From NCBI GenBank assembly GCA_019310965.1, contig JAFDDG010000033.1, positions 1 through 36,870 on the forward strand: a stretch of 36,870 bases of DNA, in the 5' to 3' direction. The translations under genes were made by a program, and so were the position numbers. Below are positions 11,735 to 22,841 of this stretch, piece after piece; within the stretch, counting starts at the first letter, position 1; every line of letters starts with the position of its first letter. This stretch comes from Deltaproteobacteria bacterium (GTDB taxonomy: Bacteria > Myxococcota_A > UBA9160 > SMWR01). The notes beneath the pieces are model-generated. The model did no database searches and was not told the origin of the DNA. It saw only the letters and a list, made by a program, of their open reading frames with translations.

Positions 11735-13051
11735 ATGAATGCAACGATCGTGCGCCACGGCCTCGCCGTCGGCTGCCTGCTGGCCCCCCTTTCAGCTCGG
11801 GCCGTGGAAGACGCGGGCGGCGCCACGCCGCAGTTCCAAGAAGGCGACGTCATCACCTACGACCAGGTCGACACGCTGCGGCGGTTCGTGCCGGACGAGT
11901 TCTGGGACAACCGCGATTTCTTCTTCTACGAAGGCATGCAGCTCACCGTCGGGCCGACCATGCGCGACTACACACCCAACGAACAGTACTTGGACGCGCG
12001 GGAGCGCTATGCCGACACGGCCACCATCGGACCGGACAACAGCCTCGTGGGCTACACCTCCGGGCGCCCCTTCCAGAACGCCAACATCGACTGCAAGAAC
12101 GATCCCCAGGCCGGTGTCAAGATCATGTGGAACTTCGACAAGCGGCCAGACGGCGACGGCAAGGCATCGTTCTTCTATTCCTACTGGGACCGCGGTGAGC
12201 AGCTGCCCCTCTACTACGAGGGCACGGCCAGCCAGATCAAGCTGTCCCAACGCTACGAACCCGGCTACGAGGAAACTCGAGGCGACATCTTCCGCGGCGA
12301 GAAGCGCATCGACGCCTTCGGCGTGCACGTCGATGCTCCTTTCGACGCCCGCGGCATCGAGCTGCTCTCCTACCGCTACCGAACGTCGGACTCGACCCGA
12401 GAAGAATCCCGCAACGACGACACCTGGGTCTACGTTCCGACGCTGCGCCGCGTGCGGCGCATCTCTTCGGCACAGCGCACGGACGCGGTCGCCGGAACGG
12501 ACTTCACCCTCGACGACCTGCGCAGCTTCAACGGCATCGTTCCCCAGTACGAGTGGGAGTGCCTCGACGATCGCAGGCTGATCTCCCCCTCGAACACCAT
12601 GGTCAAGGCGTACCCGTACGTGAAGGACCACAACTTCGGCCCGTACGGCCTTTCCTACGCCAGCGATCGCTGGGAGCTGCGCGACGCCTGGCTGGTGCGG
12701 ATGAACCCCAAGAACGACGACCACCCGTACCACCACAAGGACATCTGGATCGACAAGCAGAGCCTGGCGCCGCTCTACTCCTTCGCGTACGACCGCAAGG
12801 AGGAGCTGTGGAAGATTCTCTGGCACGTCAAGCGCTGGAGCGAGGATACGGACCTGACCGGCGTGTGGTACGAGGGCTGGGAAGGCGTTCCGGTGCCGCG
12901 AGCCCTGCAGGTCGTGAGCGACATGATCGTCAACGTGCAGACGGGCACGGGCAATCGTATCGAGTTCTGGGATGCGCACGGCACACCGCCCAAGAGCAAG
13001 GGCAAGATCCGCCGTTTCATCGACGTGGGGCGACTGACGAAGGGACGTTGA
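11735..13051 (+). CDS. Exported DUF1329 protein
   Basis: A 438-residue DUF1329 protein, typical length, after a GAGGAG site. Residues 1-23 are a signal peptide ending SARA, so it is likely periplasmic or outer-membrane associated. Family marks are the [18 protein letters not shown] start, the central [13 protein letters not shown] strand, [15 protein letters not shown], and the long [18 protein letters not shown] segment near the C-terminus. The fold is thought to be LolA/LolB-like, shielding a lipid in transit. In other genomes DUF1329 genes sit beside RND/MMPL exporters and DUF1302 genes in clusters for hydrophobic compounds; neither partner is in this window. Here it is a single gene, divergent from glnS, so a lipid-carrier role is inference from family only. 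Confidence 0.9.
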
Positions 13052-13608: not shown

Positions 13609-13633
13609 AACTCCCCGCAGGTGCGGAGTTTTT
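13609..13633 (+). terminator. Possible intrinsic terminator
   Basis: AACTCC pairs with GGAGTT around an inner CGCA/TGCG part, followed by five T on the plus strand. No called plus-strand gene precedes it, so it would end an unannotated transcript from the repeat-rich gap. The stem is interrupted, so confidence is low. Confidence 0.3.
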
Positions 13634-14028
13634 CAGGCCGTCTGCGACGCCCGGGGTCGGCCGCGCAGCAACACCCACCCGACCGCGAACGCGGCCAGCA
13701 CCTCAACCGCCAGACTCTGGAGCTGATAGGTGGCGAACTCCGCGTCGACCAGCAGGCCGGCGCCCCGGATGATGGCGACGGCGGCGCAGAAGAGCAGCAG
13801 CGCAACCAGCCCCGCGGCGTAGCGAGCCGGATCGCGGTCGCACCAGAGAAGGAAGCCGGCCAGGGCGAGCTGCGGCCCAGCGTAGACTGCGCGGAGCTCG
13901 GTGAGACCGGCGGCGCTCGCCGAGATCCCCGCAGCCGCCGCGAAGAAGCCGGGAGCCAGCGCGCAGGCAAGGCCGGCGAGAAGCAACAGCGCGCTGCCGA
14001 TGCGAATGACGATGCGTTGCGCGGACAC
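13633..14028 (-). CDS. DUF4345 small membrane protein
   Basis: About 131 residues with four hydrophobic segments (near 9-27, 45-62, 67-90, 100-120). The segment LTELRAVYAGPQLALAGFLL is the mark of the DUF4345 family. The frame stays open to 14106, but GTG at 14028 follows GGAGAGG at five bases and gives the usual family length, so I use it. The function of the family is not known; members are inner-membrane proteins. It is divergent from the TetR gene at 14121, and the 92 bases between hold a palindrome over a perfect -35 box, so it may be controlled by that regulator. Confidence 0.8.
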   Translation of the reverse strand: MSAQRIVIRIGSALLLLAGLACALAPGFFAAAAGISASAAGLTELRAVYAGPQLALAGFLLWCDRDPARYAAGLVALLLFCAAVAIIRGAGLLVDAEFATYQLQSLAVEVLAAFAVGWVLLRGRPRASQTA

Positions 14029-14081
14029 GTCGACCTCTCCATCTGAATCGTTCGCCCGCCGGAGGCGGGCATGGATCCCGT

Positions 14082-14115
14082 TTGACATCCTGTCACATCC
14101 CGCCATAGCCTGTCA
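14082..14115 (+). promoter_or_regulatory. Promoter with overlapping operator of the TetR-P450 pair
   Basis: A perfect -35 TTGACA (14082-14087) lies about 17 bases before a weak -10 near 14104-14110 (CATAGC). The palindrome TGACA-N3-TGTCA (14083-14095) overlaps the -35, and the half-site CCTGTCA recurs 20 bases later (14109-14115), next to the TetR ATG at 14121. This is a typical layout for autorepression by the TetR protein and may also affect the divergent DUF4345 gene. Confidence 0.5.
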
Positions 14116-14120
14116 GGATC

Positions 14121-14780
14121 ATGACCACGCCGTCACCCTCTTCTCAGGGTTTTGAAATTGTCGAATTTTCTTCCCTGGAGCCGCACGGCGAGCGGCGCAA
14201 ACGCCAGCTGGTACGCGCAGCCGCCCACATCGTCGAATTCGAAGGACTCGACGCCCTGCGCATGCCACGCGTGGCCGAGCTCGCCGGTTGCACCCGAACC
14301 CTGATCTACCGCTACTTCCCGGGTCGGGACGATCTGCTGATCGCCGTCGCGGCCGAATACTACAGCGCGCTCGACGAGCGGCTCGATCAAGAAGCGCAGA
14401 AGAACGCCGCCCAGGGTATCCCGCCCCCGCAGGATGCATTGGAAATCACCCTGACCACGCTCGATATCGTCTTCGAAGTGGTCACCGAGCTCGGGCTCGC
14501 CGGGCTGATGCTGCGCAGCAGCGCTCATCTGAGCGAAGGCATGCGCGAGTACCTGGCCCGGCGATCGGAGCACTTTTCGGCGCGCTGGGTCGAGCCGATG
14601 CGCCGGTCGGGCCTGTCCGGCCTGCGTATGGCACTCTTCGCCGAGGCGAGCATCGCACTCCTGATCGAGCTGGTGCACCGCTGGCAGCACGAGGAGATCC
14701 TACGCGAAGAGGCCATGGCTCTGTGCCGCAGCGCCTGCATCGGCTTGCTGAGCGGGCTGCAGGAGCCGCCGCCGCAGTGA
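14121..14780 (+). CDS. TetR-family transcriptional regulator
   Basis: A 219-residue TetR regulator. The N-terminal DNA-binding domain spans about 24-75: RRKRQLVRAAAHIVEFEGL (helix 1), MPRVAELAGCTRTLIYRYFPGRDDLL (helix-turn-helix and start of helix 4). The rest is the variable ligand domain. An unusual 23-residue N-terminal leader (SPSSQGFEIVEFSS) precedes the usual start. The stop overlaps the GTG of the P450 homologue by four bases, so the two are translationally coupled and the regulator probably responds to a ligand linked to that protein. A palindrome and -35 box directly upstream suggest autorepression. Confidence 0.95.
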   Translation: MTTPSPSSQGFEIVEFSSLEPHGERRKRQLVRAAAHIVEFEGLDALRMPRVAELAGCTRTLIYRYFPGRDDLLIAVAAEYYSALDERLDQEAQKNAAQGIPPPQDALEITLTTLDIVFEVVTELGLAGLMLRSSAHLSEGMREYLARRSEHFSARWVEPMRRSGLSGLRMALFAEASIALLIELVHRWQHEEILREEAMALCRSACIGLLSGLQEPPPQ

Positions 14781-16009
14781 CGCCTGCGCTCCACAAGCGC
14801 GCGACGCTGCCCGGGGATATCGATCTCACCAGCCCCGGCTGTTTCCGCGACGCAAAGGCGCATCACGCAGCATTCGCACGGCTGCGCCAGGAGGCGCCGG
14901 TCGCTTGGCACCCCCACGCGGGGGGTGGTTTCTGGGTGGTGTCGCGTCATGCCGACGTGCTGCACGTGCTGCGCGACACGGAAACATTCGACCAGGCTGC
15001 AGGGCATCTGATCGGCGGCCTGGCCAACGCCACACCCGCGGCCGGGGCCGAGGCATTCGCGTTCCGCAACGGGGCGCCGCCCTTCTCTCGCAAGGGCGAA
15101 GGCGGGCACGCCCGACTCGAGGCGGCGGCCGTAGAGGCTCTGGTTCCCGGCATCCGCGCACGAATCGTGGAACGCCTCGCTGCCCATGCGGGCAGCGGCG
15201 CGCTCGACTTCGTCGAGCTGATCGCACCCTTGCCGAGCGAGGTTCGCGCAACCTTGGCGGGCGTGCCGGGCGCGCACCAGGACCACCTGATCGCCTGGGT
15301 CGACACGCTCGGCGATCGACGCACCGGGGTCATCAGTGCCACTGCCGACGCGCGTCGCGAGGCCGCCGCAGAGCTCATCCGGTACGCGGAGAAGCTCCTC
15401 GCCCGCAAGCGAGAACAGCCAGGCGAAGACCTCATCAGCGACTGGCTCGCCGCCGAGACACAGGCGAGCCCGGTCACGGCCCGCCACGTCGGAGTGCTCC
15501 TCTTCGCATTCATCGCAGTCGGCAGCGCGACGACGCGCAACGTCGCGGCGGCCGGCCAGCGCCTGCTCTTCGAGTCCCCGAATATCACCAAGCAGCTGCG
15601 CGCCGCGCCCGATCTGCTGCCGGCGGCGATCGAGGAAATGCTGCGGCTGGCGCCTCCGTTTCACTACGCGCGCCGTACGGCGCAGCGCGATGCGGCCGTC
15701 GGCGGCCAGCGCATCGCCAAGGGCGACGCGATCACCCTCTGGCTGGGATCCGCCAACCGCGACTCCGCCGTCTTCGAACACCCCTCTCGCTTTGCGCCCG
15801 AGCGCACAGCGCACACGCACCTGAGCTTCGCCGCTGACGGACTCTTCACTCTGGGTGCGGCCCTCGCTCGCATCGAGCTCGTCACCCTATTCGACGAGCT
15901 CCTGCAGCGCTTCCCGGAGATGATTCCCGCTGGCCCGACGGAACACACCGACTCGAACCACGAGAACCGGATCGTGCGGTTGCCGGTATACCTCGGCGCA
16001 GCAGCCTGA
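14777..16009 (+). CDS. Cytochrome P450 homologue lacking the heme-ligand cysteine (predicted pseudoenzyme)
   Basis: A full-length 410-residue bacterial P450 fold, start GTG inside the TetR stop (GTGA overlap). Clear marks: DIDLTSP near 14-20, WVVSRHADVLHVLRD (53-67), the ExxR pair Glu287-Arg290, ANRDSAVFEHPSRFAPER (326-343) and the end pattern N-x-I-x-RLPVYL. The overall pattern resembles the CYP125/CYP142/CYP124 group. Yet the heme loop reads FAADGLFTLG (351-360): without any gap, the proximal cysteine is Thr358 (codon 15848-15850), the preceding His is Leu356 and both glycines are changed. The I-helix reads VGSATT, with Ala251 for the acidic residue, and the C-helix HARLE (111-115) ends in Glu where heme-binding Arg is normal. 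The frame is intact, so this looks like a retained protein without P450 chemistry: a partner/activator, a ligand binder, or a new heme use. Confidence 0.9.
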   Translation: MTPALHKRATLPGDIDLTSPGCFRDAKAHHAAFARLRQEAPVAWHPHAGGGFWVVSRHADVLHVLRDTETFDQAAGHLIGGLANATPAAGAEAFAFRNGAPPFSRKGEGGHARLEAAAVEALVPGIRARIVERLAAHAGSGALDFVELIAPLPSEVRATLAGVPGAHQDHLIAWVDTLGDRRTGVISATADARREAAAELIRYAEKLLARKREQPGEDLISDWLAAETQASPVTARHVGVLLFAFIAVGSATTRNVAAAGQRLLFESPNITKQLRAAPDLLPAAIEEMLRLAPPFHYARRTAQRDAAVGGQRIAKGDAITLWLGSANRDSAVFEHPSRFAPERTAHTHLSFAADGLFTLGAALARIELVTLFDELLQRFPEMIPAGPTEHTDSNHENRIVRLPVYLGAAA

Positions 16010-16044
16010 CACCCGCGACAGCGGCGCTGGAACCAGCACGCTGC

Positions 16045-16217
16045 CCTGCCCGGCGCCGAACGGGCGGCGGCGCGCCCTTTGGACCGATGGCGCGCGATCC
16101 AGCGCTGGACCGTCCGTACGCCAACGCCAGGGGCCTGGGCGGCTCCTCTGCAGCCCATCCGAGCCGCTGAACACGGTCGACGAGAAGCTCGCAGGTGAAC
16201 GGGGTGGTCTTCGCGTT
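16045..16217 (-). pseudogene. IS481-type transposase N-terminal remnant, frameshifted
   Basis: In one minus-strand frame NAKTTPFTCELLVDRVQRLGW (about 16217-16155) resembles the start of IS481-family transposases. In the next frame AAQAPGVGVRTVQRWIARHR (from about 16143) continues with the helix-turn-helix, followed by SKGRAAARSAPGR. The switch of frame near 16150 and lack of any DDE domain make it a dead fragment. No terminal inverted repeats were found. It marks a past insertion between the P450 homologue and the SelD gene; the rest of 16010-16416 holds nothing else I can name. Confidence 0.5.
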
Positions 16218-16416
16218 AGCAGGTTGCTGAAATAGCTTGGTAAGCGGTGCCAGGGCCAGGTGCGAAGGCGGTGTCGTGCTCATGCGCCGGCGCCCCTCGT
16301 TCCTTCACCAGAGCTGCGAAGCGCCTGCGTTGGGGCACCTCTGCTTCCGCGCGCCACCGCCTTCGCACCCGGCACGTTCCTCCGTGGCATCCGGCAACAC
16401 TCTCACCCAGCCAGTG

Positions 16417-18639
16417 CTAGGTCGCGGCGAAGCTCTTGCCATCACCCCGCGGCGGCGTAACCACGCCGATGCGCGCCGCAGTGCCGTCGCCCGCCGCCCG
16501 AAGATCCGCCAGCACCGCATCTGCGCGCTCGGAGGCCACCGCCAGCAACAACCCGCCGGAGGTCTGCGGATCGAAGAGCAGCGCACAGCCCAGCGGATCC
16601 GCCGTGGCAGCCACGGCGATGCGGCGGCGAAGCTCAGCGTTCTGCGCATGAAACGTGCTGCGCACGCCGCGCGCCAGAAGCTCGCGCACCCCGGCGAACG
16701 CGGGCAGCGCCCCGATGCAGAGCTCTGCGGCAACACCGCTCGCGGCCAGCATCTCGCACAGATGCCCGGCCAGCCCGAAGCCGCTGACGTCAGTCGAGGC
16801 GTGTACCGCGTGGCGCCGGGCGATCTCGGCAGCAGCCGCATTGTCGCGCACGAGCACCGCGTGGAGCGCCTCCACCCATACCCCGCGAGCGAGCCCCTGC
16901 ATGTCTGCCGCCAGAAGCACACCGGAGCCCAGCGCCTGGGTCAGAAGCAGACAGTCGCCGGCGCGGGCGCCGTCCAGCGGCAGCGGCTCAGCGCCGGCCG
17001 ACAGCTCGCCGGTAATCGAGAGACCCACGAATAGCTCGGGCCCCCGCGTCGTGTGACCGCCGAGCAGCGTCACGCCGAGTGGGTCGAGGGCGGCCCGCAC
17101 ACCGGACAGCACCTGATGCAAGGTGTCTTCGCCGCGCGCCGGCTCGACGTCGGGCACGGTCACGAGAGCCAGCGCATGACGTGGGCGACCGCCCTTGGCC
17201 AACACATCGCTCACGGCGTTTACCGCGGCCACCCTGCCCACGAGCCAGGGGTCGTCGCAGAAGGCCGGAAAGCCGTCGATGGTCGCGAGCAGGACGTCAC
17301 CGCCGGGAAGCTCCACGGCCGCCACATCGTCCGGCCGGGCGAGCCCCAGGCGAACGCTCGGATCATCCGGCGCCGGGTCGAGGCGCGCGAGCGCAGCTTC
17401 GAGAGGAGAAACAGCGAGCTTCGCAGCGCAGCCCCCGCATTCCATCGGCTCCATGCCCATCGATTCGGCCGATGGAAAGCTGGCTGCCGGCGCGCCGTCT
17501 CCCGCGAGCACTTGAAAGCGCCGCATGAAGCGCCGGTCGATCCAGTCCTTGAGTCGCCACACCGCGCGCCCGGTCTTCACGACGCCCCACTTCGTGCCGA
17601 GAGCGCGGCGCTCGCCGAGGTTCAGCAGCGCCAGAAAGCTGCGCTGCGGCCGGTAGCGACGCAGCGGTCTGCCGCCGAGTGCCGCGCGCAGGTTCGCGTC
17701 CAGCAGCGGACCCTGGCGCACGGCATAGACACCTGCCTTCGGCAGCCATGGATGCGCGACCAGCGCCGCACAGTCGCCGGCGGCGAAGAGCGCCTCACAG
17801 CCCTCGACCTCCAGGGTGTCGCGCACTCGCACGAAGCCGGCCGCGTCGGTCGGCAGGTCCGAGGCTTCGAGCAGCGGCGGCGCCGCCGCGCCGGCAGCCC
17901 AGACGACCAGATCGACCGGCAGCGGCTGGGCCACACCCTCGAGAACGACCGCATCGGCCGCGACACGCATGACACGGGCGCCGGTCAGCACTCGGAACCC
18001 TCGTGCCTGGGCCAGCCGCTCGGCGGCGTGCACGGCTCGCCGAGCCGCACCCGGCAGCAGTGTCGACGCCTCACCCAGCAGAGTGAGCTGCGGCTGGATG
18101 CCCGCCGCCCGCAAGCGCGCGTCCAGCGTGAACGCCAGCTCCACGCCAGCCGCGCCCGTGCCGACCACTGCGACGCGCGGCACATCCGGCAGCTCTGCCA
18201 GACGAGCGTCGAGCTCGGCGACGAAGCGAGGAATCGGACGCGTCGTCAGCGCGTGGTCGAACGCGCCGGGGATCTCCCGTCCCCGCACCGTCGATCCCAC
18301 GTTCAGGCTCGCCACGTCGTAGCGAATGGACGGGCGACCCTGGAGATCGATGCGACGGCTGACGGCTTCGACGCGTGTCGCCGCAGCGAGCACCACCCGG
18401 GCACCCGCGCGGCGCGCCAACGGCACCAGGTCGATCGTAAAATCGTCGGCTGTGTATTCGCCCGCCACGAAGCCCGGCAGCATGCCCGAGTAGGCCGCCT
18501 CGGGACCGTCCAGCACCACGGTCAGGCGCACGTCGGGTAACGGCGCCATCATCCAGCGTCGGATCACCTGGACGTGCGCGTGGCCGCCGCCCACCAGCAC
18601 CAGATCGCGGCCGGGCTCCGGCGCCCCAAGGCGGTGCAA
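16417..18639 (-). CDS. selD: Selenide, water dikinase fused to N-terminal FAD/NAD(P) oxidoreductase
   Basis: A 740-residue two-domain protein. Residues 11-375 are a pyridine-nucleotide-disulfide/NDH-2-like FAD domain: DLVLVGGGHAHVQVI, the second nucleotide fold VAVVGTGAAGVELAF (156-170) and the FAD end motif LFAAGDCAAL (284-293). Residues about 397-740 are SelD, which makes selenophosphate from selenide and ATP. Its catalytic loop reads CGGCAAK, with Cys404 and Lys407 in the places of Escherichia coli Cys17 and Lys20, then ATIDGFPAF and VNAVSDVLAKGG. This fusion is a known SelD architecture; the oxidoreductase may help supply reduced selenium. The start is a TTG with GGAGG at seven bases. No selA, selB or tRNA-Sec gene is in the window, so use for selenocysteine or selenouridine is open. 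Confidence 0.95.
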   Translation of the reverse strand: MHRLGAPEPGRDLVLVGGGHAHVQVIRRWMMAPLPDVRLTVVLDGPEAAYSGMLPGFVAGEYTADDFTIDLVPLARRAGARVVLAAATRVEAVSRRIDLQGRPSIRYDVASLNVGSTVRGREIPGAFDHALTTRPIPRFVAELDARLAELPDVPRVAVVGTGAAGVELAFTLDARLRAAGIQPQLTLLGEASTLLPGAARRAVHAAERLAQARGFRVLTGARVMRVAADAVVLEGVAQPLPVDLVVWAAGAAAPPLLEASDLPTDAAGFVRVRDTLEVEGCEALFAAGDCAALVAHPWLPKAGVYAVRQGPLLDANLRAALGGRPLRRYRPQRSFLALLNLGERRALGTKWGVVKTGRAVWRLKDWIDRRFMRRFQVLAGDGAPAASFPSAESMGMEPMECGGCAAKLAVSPLEAALARLDPAPDDPSVRLGLARPDDVAAVELPGGDVLLATIDGFPAFCDDPWLVGRVAAVNAVSDVLAKGGRPRHALALVTVPDVEPARGEDTLHQVLSGVRAALDPLGVTLLGGHTTRGPELFVGLSITGELSAGAEPLPLDGARAGDCLLLTQALGSGVLLAADMQGLARGVWVEALHAVLVRDNAAAAEIARRHAVHASTDVSGFGLAGHLCEMLAASGVAAELCIGALPAFAGVRELLARGVRSTFHAQNAELRRRIAVAATADPLGCALLFDPQTSGGLLLAVASERADAVLADLRAAGDGTAARIGVVTPPRGDGKSFAAT

Positions 18640-19380: not shown

Positions 19381-19500
19381 ATGAGCGAGGCTGCTGCACC
19401 CACCGGCTGGCGCCGCAGAACGGTCGAGAAGAACGCGCGGCGAAACCGGCAGGCATGGAAAGCGCAGTGCCGGAAGTTGCTCGAGCGCCAGGCGGCCTGA
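19381..19500 (+). CDS. Possible 39-residue basic peptide
   Basis: A short frame from ATG 19381 to TGA 19500; an in-frame ATG also occurs 12 bases upstream. The peptide has 11 Arg/Lys, with GWRRRTVEKNARRNRQAW and CRKLLERQAA at the end, and would form a basic amphipathic helix. No ribosome-binding site is visible. It ends 17 bases before the start of the next membrane protein, so it might be a leader peptide affecting its translation. Coding by chance is quite possible. Confidence 0.3.
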   Translation: MSEAAAPTGWRRRTVEKNARRNRQAWKAQCRKLLERQAA

Positions 19501-19517
19501 CGCGCGCGCGGGCTGCC

Positions 19518-21074
19518 ATGCGTACACCGCACCGTACGACCCTCCTCCGCCTCGGGGTCGCGGCGTGTGTCTTCGCCGGCCTGTGCAGCGCATTTCCGGA
19601 GCAGGCCTGGCACTGGGATGAGTTCCAGCTGGCCTACGCCGTGCGCGATTTCGATCTGGCGCGGCATCAGCCCCACCCGCCGGGTTACTACCTCTTCGTG
19701 GTGGCTGGCCGCGCACTCGACGCGCTGCTCGGCGATCCCTTTCTCGCGCTGCGCTGCGTGTCGGGCCTCGCCATCGCAGCCTTCGCAAGCATGGCCATCG
19801 GAGCGCCGGCGGCGGGCACAACCCCCATCGCGCGTGGGCTCTGGGTCGCCGCCGCCGCCGGCTTCGGACTCGCCTCGCCGCTGACACAGCGTTTCGGCGT
19901 TGCCGCGCTGACCTACGCAGCAGAGGGTGCGATCTGGATGGGTTGGCTCCTCGCGCTGGGGCAACGGCCACGCGCCCGCGGACGCCTCGTGCTGGCTGCC
20001 ACCGCCGGACTCGCGGGCGGCGTGCGACCGACTCTGGCGCTCTGGGCCGGCGCGATGTTGCTCTTCGATGTCGCTCGGCGGCGAGACTGGCGTTCGCTCG
20101 CGGGCCTCGGCCTGGCCGGAGCGGCGGGAGGCGCGCTGTGGGTGATCCCGCTGCTCTGGGAGAGCGGGGGCATCGCCGCCTACCGCGCCGACGCGGGCCC
20201 CCTGGCGGTGGGCAACATCTGGAACGGCTCGGTCTTCGTGGCGGGCTTCGACGGCTGGAGAACACGACTGGCCGACATGGGGCTCGACCTGCTGACGGCC
20301 CTTGGCGGACTCGTCGCGGTGGTGGTGGCGGCCCTGGCGCTGCGCGTGCGCAAACGAGCGGCGGAACCCGTCGCGTACGACGTGTTGCTGCAGGGCGCGG
20401 CGCTGGCATTCGGCTTCTACGCGCTCGTCATCTACGACACCGCGGGCTATCTGATGGCAGTCGTGCTGCCGCTGGCGGCCTGGGCGTTGCGCAGCGCCGC
20501 GGCGAGCGCCGCAAACTGGCCGGCACGGAACCAGGCTGCGGCCGCGGGCGCCGCACTCGTCCTCGCCGTCGTCGGCACACTCGCACCAGACGACCGGATC
20601 GACCCCCACTACGCCGAGCACGCTCGGCTGCTCGACGCGCGCTTCGCACCGGTGCGCGCAGGCTTCGACCCGCGGAGCACACTGTTGATCACTTCGCGGG
20701 AGTACTGGGACTACGCATTGCGGCACGTGGCTCACGCGCTGCCGGAGTTCACCACGCTCCAGCTCGCAAAGGACCCCTACTTCACCATCAGCAACGCAGC
20801 ACAGCCGTATCTCTCCGCGCGGCAGCGACGCATCGCCGCCGTGGGCCCGGATCCGCTCGATCTCGCCACGTTGACGCCCAGCGGTCGACTCGCGCAGGTC
20901 GTGTACATGGTGCCCTTCGACGCACAGGAGTTCATCGCGCGGGCGTGCGGCGAGCTCGCGGAGGCACTGCAGACGAGCAGCGACGAAACCCTGCCCGTGT
21001 TGCGGCTGCGCCCGGGCTGGCGCATCGAGGCACGCAATCAGAGACTCCACTGCGCCCGCAGCGACGCCCGCTGA
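19518..21074 (+). CDS. Multipass membrane protein, GT-C-like glycosyltransferase candidate
   Basis: About 518 residues from ATG 19518; an ATG at 19455 would add 21 residues and overlap the small frame before it. A first membrane helix (LLRLGVAACVFAGLCSAF) is followed by the loop EQAWHWDEFQLAYAVRDF, with the WDE acidic loop of GT-C enzymes, then HPPGYYLFV, and eight or more further hydrophobic segments. HPPGYY resembles the P-x-Y part of the dolichol-phosphate-mannose mannosyltransferase family. The last 130 residues are soluble and start near RSTLLITSREYWDYAL. It probably moves a sugar from a polyprenyl carrier at the periplasmic face; donor and acceptor are unknown. The protein at 5440-7074 is of similar build. 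Confidence 0.75.
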   Translation: MRTPHRTTLLRLGVAACVFAGLCSAFPEQAWHWDEFQLAYAVRDFDLARHQPHPPGYYLFVVAGRALDALLGDPFLALRCVSGLAIAAFASMAIGAPAAGTTPIARGLWVAAAAGFGLASPLTQRFGVAALTYAAEGAIWMGWLLALGQRPRARGRLVLAATAGLAGGVRPTLALWAGAMLLFDVARRRDWRSLAGLGLAGAAGGALWVIPLLWESGGIAAYRADAGPLAVGNIWNGSVFVAGFDGWRTRLADMGLDLLTALGGLVAVVVAALALRVRKRAAEPVAYDVLLQGAALAFGFYALVIYDTAGYLMAVVLPLAAWALRSAAASAANWPARNQAAAAGAALVLAVVGTLAPDDRIDPHYAEHARLLDARFAPVRAGFDPRSTLLITSREYWDYALRHVAHALPEFTTLQLAKDPYFTISNAAQPYLSARQRRIAAVGPDPLDLATLTPSGRLAQVVYMVPFDAQEFIARACGELAEALQTSSDETLPVLRLRPGWRIEARNQRLHCARSDAR

Positions 21075-21332: not shown

Positions 21333-21359
21333 CCCTCCACGGCCCGGGTGACCCGCGAC

Positions 21360-22841
21360 ATGGATCTACTCATCGGAAATGTATTTCGCCGCAACGCAGA
21401 GCATGTCCCGGAGCATGTCGCGGCGTCGCTGGGCGAGCACACACTCACCCACGGTCAGCTCGATGCCGACGCCAACCGTATCGCCCACGCGCTGCGGGCG
21501 CTGGGCATCGGGCACGGCGACCGGGTCGTCACCTGGGCCGACACGTCGCTGGCCGTGCTGCCGCTTTTTGCAGCGCTCGCGAAGCTCGGCGCCGTCTTCG
21601 CACCGCTCAACGCGCGCCTGGGAGCCGACGAAGCAGCCGACGTGGCGGCGCTGGCCCGCGCCCGGCTCTTCGTCGCCGATGCCGCGCGCGCCGAGGCGGG
21701 CGAAGCACTGGCGCGCAGGCTCGGCATCCCTCACTTCGCGCGCCTCGGCGGCGAGCGCGGCCCCGGGCTGCTGCTCGAGCCCGAGGCACTCGGCGGCCCG
21801 ACGACCGATGTCGACACACCCGAGCTGCGCGAGAACGACCCGCACGTCATCTTCTTCACCAGCGGCAGCACGGGACGGCCCAAGGGCGTCGTGCTCTCGC
21901 ATCGCACCAACTGGCTGCGCGGCTTCCAGGGTGTGTTCCGCGATGCGCCGGAGCGCTCGATCTGCATGTTCCCGTTCTTCCACATGGGCGCCTTCACCCT
22001 GGCCCTCACCGCCTGGCATACTCGCGGTGAGATCGGTCTCGTCGAAGCGGCCACGGCCGAGCAGATCCTCGCGGCCGTCGAACGCCGGCGCGGCAACCGT
22101 CTCTACTGCATTCCCGCCGTGTGGGCGCGCATCCTGGAGACGCCCCCGGACGCATACGACACCTCGAGCCTGCGCGAGATCGACACCGGGACTTCGGCGA
22201 CGCCCATCGAGCTGATCCGCGCGCTCAAGCAGCGTTTCCCCGGAACGGTGACGCGCATCTACTACGGATCGACGGAATCGGGCTCCGGCACGACGCTGCC
22301 GGACGCCGACGTGCTGCGAAAGCCGGGCAGCGCGGGGTTGCCGTCTCCGAGCGTCGAGCTGCGGCTGTCGGGCGCCGGGGAGATCCAGCTCCGAAGCCCC
22401 TTCTTGATGGACGGCTACTTCGACGATCCGGAAGCCAGCGCCGCCGGCCTCCAGGGGGGCTGGTACCAGACCGGCGATCTCGGCGAACTCGACGACGAGG
22501 GCTACCTGAGCGTCATCGGGCGCCTGAAGGAGATCATCCGCACCGGCGGCGAGAGCGTTGCGCCGAACGAGGTGGAGGCCGCCTTGGCCGATCACGCGGA
22601 TCTCGCGGAGATCGCCGTGGTCGGCATTCCCGACTCACAGTGGGGTGAAGTCGTGTGCGCCGTCGTCGTGCCGAAGCCCGGCCGGAAGCCCCGCCTCGAG
22701 GCGCTTCAGCAACACTGCGAGGCGAAGCTGGCCGGCTTCAAGAAGCCGAGACGGCTCGAGTGCGTCGACGCACTGCCGCGCACAGCGGCGACGGGCCAGG
22801 TGCAGCGCCGCCTGCTCGTCGAGAGCATCGTCTCGGCTTGA
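21360..22841 (+). CDS. AMP-dependent acyl-CoA synthetase/ligase, catalytic A10 lysine replaced
   Basis: A 493-residue ANL-superfamily protein from ATG 21360; a GTG 12 bases upstream is an alternative and both lack a strong ribosome site. Core motifs are intact: A3 FFTSGSTGRPKG, A5 YGSTES, A7 YQTGDLG, A8 GRLKEIIRTGGESVAPNEVE. But the A10 motif, normally TGKVQ, reads TAATGQVQRRLL, so the lysine that contacts carboxylate and ATP in the adenylation step is Gln480 (codon 22797-22799). Mutating this lysine strongly slows adenylation in studied members, while thioester formation can remain. The protein may be slow, act on preformed adenylates, or use another residue. It follows a small lipoprotein gene and is convergent with the dipeptidase. 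Confidence 0.92.
   Translation: MDLLIGNVFRRNAEHVPEHVAASLGEHTLTHGQLDADANRIAHALRALGIGHGDRVVTWADTSLAVLPLFAALAKLGAVFAPLNARLGADEAADVAALARARLFVADAARAEAGEALARRLGIPHFARLGGERGPGLLLEPEALGGPTTDVDTPELRENDPHVIFFTSGSTGRPKGVVLSHRTNWLRGFQGVFRDAPERSICMFPFFHMGAFTLALTAWHTRGEIGLVEAATAEQILAAVERRRGNRLYCIPAVWARILETPPDAYDTSSLREIDTGTSATPIELIRALKQRFPGTVTRIYYGSTESGSGTTLPDADVLRKPGSAGLPSPSVELRLSGAGEIQLRSPFLMDGYFDDPEASAAGLQGGWYQTGDLGELDDEGYLSVIGRLKEIIRTGGESVAPNEVEAALADHADLAEIAVVGIPDSQWGEVVCAVVVPKPGRKPRLEALQQHCEAKLAGFKKPRRLECVDALPRTAATGQVQRRLLVESIVSA

Follow-up and report, generated by a model that had tools for sequence, protein, structure and literature searches.

The 36,870-nucleotide stretch of DNA analysed here (the window) covers positions 1 to 36,870 of contig JAFDDG010000033.1, forward strand, from a deltaproteobacterial genome (assembly GCA_019310965.1; Myxococcota_A, UBA9160, SMWR01). 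It contains a pair of overlapping genes: a gene for a TetR-family regulator, directly followed on the same strand by one for a protein with a cytochrome P450 fold in which the axial cysteine is replaced by threonine. The stop codon of the first gene overlaps the GTG start of the second (GTGA, 14777-14780). The features of the pair are given below. Clade and canonical rows refer to alignment A3, which holds eight rows of the cysteine-less (Cys-less) clade described here (the window protein and seven relatives) and 73 canonical P450 rows.

14121..14780, + strand: TetR-family regulator, 219 residues; TetR_N 36.5 bits (cut-off 24)
14777..16009, + strand: Cys-less P450-fold protein, 410 residues, GTG start, stop included; PF00067 59.8 bits (cut-off 22.8)
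15083..15097, + strand: Phe103 to Gly107, at the C-helix HxxxR pair; the pair is lost in 7/7 clade rows reaching there
15527..15529, + strand: Ala251, at the I-helix acid position; Ala in 8/8 clade rows, Glu in 79% of the 73 canonical rows
15635..15646, + strand: ExxR motif, Glu287-Arg290, retained in 8/8 clade rows
15827..15856, + strand: former Cys loop FAADGLFTLG, residues 351-360; ungapped against FGEGTHYCLG of the canonical relative P0009
15848..15850, + strand: Thr358, encoded by ACT, in the place of the axial Cys (codon reading and alignment)

The heme site is lost within an intact frame

The frame at 14777-16009 translates into 410 residues with no internal stop, and the alignment to P0009 places its former Cys loop on the FxxGxxxCxG signature without a gap, as a first-pass annotation of this DNA had proposed. 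Two features of heme-thiolate P450s, the ExxR motif and the P450 fold, are present in the window protein. The axial Cys of the signature is absent (Thr358), and the acid-alcohol pair of the I helix is broken: the acid is gone, and the alcohol, Thr252, is found in seven of the eight clade rows. The annotation had read Thr358, Ala251 and the exchange of the loop His for Leu356 correctly. Its fourth site needs correction. The C-helix heme site is indeed lost, but the HxxxR pair, whose His and Arg are each 99% conserved in the canonical rows, aligns with Phe103 and Gly107 and not with His111 and Glu115.

A sequencing error in the Thr358 codon had been raised as a possible cause of the change. Since ACT is two substitutions away from TGT, a single base error is no explanation, and the loss is common to the relatives described below. 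These sequence features predict a window protein that neither binds heme nor acts as an oxidising enzyme. A PHROGs search with the protein gave no match.

The loss is shared by one clade with a canonical sister

A protein search found 141 proteins, of which 120 were listed, including the window's own entry. The Cys is absent in seven of the listed relatives (P0003-P0008 and the fragment P0010, at 52-74% BLAST identity) and kept in 111 of the 112 others, with P0072 as the sole exception. The C-terminal end of P0072 is garbled and its other motifs match P0033/P0034; it is probably an assembly frameshift. One further Cys-less relative, the fragment P0138 (FAAGGFFTLG), came from a profile search and brings the number to eight. 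The first-pass annotation had allowed for orthologues that all keep the Cys; the result is the opposite, with the loss present in every clade relative found.

At the Cys position, the clade rows of A3 read T, A, T, A, T, S, T, T, and His356 is gone in seven of the eight. Arg300, Asp329 and Arg365 stay in the clade alongside ExxR. Several polar or small residues have become hydrophobic: H103F in 7/7 rows, H356L in 6/8, A248 to Val or Ile in 8/8 and G352A in 6/8. The full-length clade frames measure 408-412 residues, with 51-73% identity to the window protein. The earlier claim of heme-site loss with a retained frame is supported.

Maximum likelihood on 80 rows groups all seven full-length Cys-less proteins into one clade (support 100/100), with the canonical P0009 as its sister (support 100/100). 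The stem branch of this clade measures 0.41 changes per site, and the sister tip P0009 0.21. The simplest reading of this pattern would be a single loss, followed by faster change and then by renewed constraint.

Neutral drift was simulated in a simple scheme with no indels and 300 copies per divergence level. Stop-free copies made up 7%, 4% and 0.7% at 26%, 36% and 49% amino-acid divergence, respectively. Drift is thus unlikely to leave frames that still span 408-412 residues at 51-73% identity, while the lowest divergence level taken alone is weak evidence.

Constraint was then compared by region as mean pairwise identity, between the seven full-length clade rows and two chosen canonical groups of seven, with region limits set by ourselves. 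Over the whole chain, the clade has a mean of 0.62, against 0.67 and 0.53 for the canonical groups. Identity is lowered in the C helix (0.45 against 0.61 and 0.60) and in the Cys loop (0.61 against 0.86 and 0.72), and the meander stands at 0.56 against 0.61 and 0.64. Four other regions lie between the two canonical groups: the B-C loop at 0.63 (0.83, 0.54), F-G at 0.53 (0.70, 0.39), K-beta1 at 0.84 (0.94, 0.77) and beta4 at 0.66 (0.78, 0.42). We take these four, together with the I-helix centre, to be the regions that contain the substrate-recognition sites. The pattern fits a protein in which the cofactor was lost and much of the ligand site may still be under selection.

Distribution among genomes

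The loci taken from the window's own assembly (4.66 Mb) contain 28 P450 frames, and 27 of them carry the Cys by an alignment-based count. The glutaminyl-tRNA synthetase encoded nearby has matches in 12 of 14 genomes compared; the closest, at 70% and 68%, are metagenome-assembled genomes titled Deltaproteobacteria and Myxococcota, so that this one gene would point to a Myxococcota-like host. No member of the clade was found in other genomes of the order (78), the class (89) or a sample of the phylum (376), where at most 23, 20 and 4 candidates, respectively, were scored per genome, so that a relative could be missed. In a contig scan of named genomes, the best identity was 39% among the best 80 of 568 matches kept. 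The P450 places at 140 loci show the Cys in 141 of 143 cases, the other two being the window gene itself, fetched twice. One apparent Cys-less candidate, L066, was rejected; its loop FGAGGPHNCLG contains the Cys and is displaced by an insertion artefact. A viral scan gave no relative of the window P450.

The predicted structure keeps the P450 fold

The model of the window protein has a predicted local distance difference test (pLDDT) score of 90.1 and retains the P450 fold. Confidence is low and the helix shortened just at the C helix and the Cys loop, where the model of the sister P0009 is confident; in the Cys loop block, pLDDT is 69 in the window model and 95 in the P0009 model built on the same rows. 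Before residue 20, the window model contains only a four-residue helix (3-6).

The closest solved folds and sequences are the Mycobacterium enzymes CYP125, CYP142, CYP124 and CYP126, and the ancestral reconstruction CYP125MRCA. Identity in the aligned fold is 34-36% at best among the solved chains listed; by the nomenclature rule, a member of a P450 family shares 40% identity or more with another member. The aligned chains listed show the canonical heme loop, which the window protein lacks. EryCII is not among the fold matches listed, which is uninformative either way.

Comparison with known systems

The closest point of comparison is the sister itself. P0009 (398 residues) shares 53% whole-chain identity and the same layout with the window protein. 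It differs in retaining FGEGTHYCLG, GSETTR and HTRQR, and it has no TetR row on a size-matched contig.

To our knowledge, the only heme-free pseudoenzymes described in the P450 family are activators of glycosyltransferases in antibiotic pathways. PMC3391682 describes such DesVIII/EryCII-type activators as P450 descendants without the axial Cys, and EryCII as a protein without the C and C' helices. The window protein resembles them in the missing axial Cys and, in its model, in the shortened C helix. It differs in that the long added N-terminal helix A'', which contacts the transferase, is missing from the predicted model, and in that the partner gene encodes a TetR regulator and not a glycosyltransferase. 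On the TIGR04515 profile (cut-off 343 bits), four clade members score 103-112, with 105.5 for the window protein, while four canonical P450s score higher, at 122-154. A glycosyltransferase activator of DesVIII/EryCII type was therefore set aside, in keeping with the doubt already voiced in the first-pass annotation.

A second precedent concerns the gene order. In the Bm3R1/FatR-CYP102 operons, TetR-family and P450 genes stand in tandem and the repressor is released by fatty acids, according to PMC3814354. The window has the same arrangement, with the TetR gene directly upstream of the P450-family gene on one strand. CYP102, however, is an active fatty-acid hydroxylase, whereas the heme site of the window protein is gone. 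Among the titles and abstract starts of a partial collection of open PMC papers, none dealt with the pairing of a TetR regulator and a P450 that lacks the Cys.

A TetR gene probably accompanies some Cys-less relatives

The protein encoded at 14121..14780 reaches the cut-off of none of the NCBIfam TetR models. A search with it listed 15 relatives besides the window copy. Three of the seven Cys-less P450 rows have a TetR relative on a contig of equal size and source, against none of the 112 other rows. The matched pairs are P0123/P0007 (7517 bases, ena), P0127/P0006 (3697, jgi) and P0130/P0008 (19872, lgn), with identities to the window copies of 70, 67 and 55% for TetR and 58, 64 and 51% for the P450, in the same order. 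From the equal size and source, we infer that the matched genes share contigs. The earlier proposal of TetR as the partner thus gains from a neighbour that appears to be conserved.

Within the class, TetR relatives occur in 8 of 90 genomes, the window's own included. None of the seven TetR stretches examined from the class (one second place in G024 was left out) contains a clear ancestral TetR-P450 pair. At L152 (3801-10330), in a genome of the same order, two canonical P450 frames flank a distant relative of the TetR protein (33% identity), both within about 2 kb of it and both with the Cys. At L151, a gene of the major facilitator superfamily adjoins the TetR relative.

Two further features lie upstream of the TetR gene:

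14083..14095, + strand: palindrome TGACATCCTGTCA, a possible but weak TetR operator; the only match in the window when 1 mismatch is allowed, against 0.53 expected
13633..14106, - strand: divergent DUF4345 frame, a possible co-regulated neighbour; PF14248 matches from residue 30 onwards (37.1 bits); the true start may lie downstream

The palindrome has its sole exact match in the own genome here, where about one is expected by a hand estimate. A direct repeat, CCTGTCA with a 20-base spacing, stands beside this perfect palindrome just upstream of the TetR gene (14083-14119). A search of 13900-16450 gave no sigma-70-like promoter.

A possible ligand-binding partner of the regulator

We tentatively favour the reading that the window protein is a P450-family pseudoenzyme, predicted to be free of heme, that would bind a ligand and work together with the TetR regulator of the overlapping gene. 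It starts from the alignment and the tree, by which a single clade with a canonical sister lacks the axial Cys together with the acid of the I helix and the anchors of the C helix. The matches in contig size and source for three Cys-less relatives would place the two genes side by side elsewhere as well. TetR may repress its own two-gene operon and be released by a hydrophobic molecule, as fatty acids release Bm3R1/FatR. The heme-free P450 protein could bind the same class of molecule through its retained substrate-recognition parts and its more hydrophobic core, and would set the response of the switch by holding the molecule or by touching TetR. Because the nearest solved folds include the steroid- and lipid-oxidising CYP125, CYP142 and CYP124, the ligand may be steroid- or fatty-acid-like. 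In a more specific form, which we consider unlikely, the heme-free P450 fold would be the ligand-sensing subunit of a transcription switch: it would take up a signal of steroid- or lipid-like kind and pass it on to the co-encoded TetR repressor, or act directly on that repressor.

Several observations weigh against the favoured reading. Arg300, at a position that we take to be able to hold a heme propionate, is retained in all eight clade rows. The I-helix centre, a substrate-facing part, has a lower mean identity in the clade (0.71) than in both canonical groups (0.89, 0.80). Four of the seven Cys-less rows have no size-matched TetR row; the contigs of these four measure 991 to 5013 bases, or the rows may have been grouped under a different contig. 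It is common for a TetR gene to stand next to a P450 gene, and the pairing need not mean contact. The occurrence of TGACATCCTGTCA is no more than chance would give.

The protein could instead serve, without heme, as a scaffold by which some other, unlinked enzyme is activated or stabilised, with TetR controlling expression only; the genome's 27 canonical P450s would be among the possible clients. EryCII sets a precedent, and the partial loss of the C helix in the window model is in line with it, but the clade has no special TIGR04515 score, the model lacks the long added N-terminal helix, and the two-gene unit contains no client gene; on balance this seems rather unlikely, though not strikingly so. 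Closer to the favoured reading is a ligand carrier or sink in a Bm3R1-type circuit, where TetR alone would sense a toxic hydrophobic molecule and induce a P450-fold binder that it never meets. The operon layout and the conserved TetR, the constraint retained in the presumed substrate-recognition parts and the Bm3R1/FatR example, as given in PMC3814354, all suit such a sink. No result speaks directly against it, and it departs from the favoured reading only in that the P450 protein does not act back on TetR; we regard it as unlikely.

Retention of heme, with another axial ligand or none, or some other chemistry, is improbable. The retained Arg300 and Thr252 (8/8 and 7/8 clade rows) speak for it, but the Cys position holds Thr in five rows, Ala in two and Ser in one, with no other conserved ligating residue in the loop, and His103 and Arg107 are lost in 7/7 rows and His356 in 7/8. 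That the gene is a decaying pseudogene or an assembly error is very improbable indeed. While the clade was met in only one genome among the order, class and phylum sample searched, the eight relatives on other contigs carry the same change, the neutral simulation seldom leaves frames of such length open at identities as low as 51%, and the Thr codon lies two substitutions from Cys.

The heme site was lost separately in a clade that has a regulator as neighbour, and a canonical sister at 53% identity still exists; the two give a clean before-and-after pair for a P450 scaffold without its cofactor. The present case combines a TetR-P450 operon layout with a P450 pseudoenzyme. It also bears on annotation. 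Five of the nine Cys-less proteins are named 'cytochrome P450' in the database, or would be so named by Pfam; P450 enzymes are overcounted when PF00067 is the only criterion.

Wider context of the window

The next downstream gene with a family match is on the opposite strand, and the two-gene unit has no client gene. None of the window frames scanned has a Pfam glycosyltransferase match above cut-off. One further frame is listed:

19455-21074, + strand: 539-residue frame with no Pfam match up to E 5

Its product presumably resembles a membrane GT-C glycosyltransferase, judged by a motif. A 740-residue frame at 16417-18639 (- strand) fuses a pyridine-nucleotide oxidoreductase domain (PF07992) to AIR-synthase-type domains (PF00586, PF02769), and we take its product to be a selenophosphate-synthase-like fusion. 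Near the TetR-P450 pair lie genes for a DUF1329 protein (11735-13051, + strand) and an AMP-binding ligase (21348-22841, + strand). CoA-transferase, enoyl-CoA hydratase and wax-ester-synthase genes are found elsewhere in the window, and the region looks rich in lipid metabolism.
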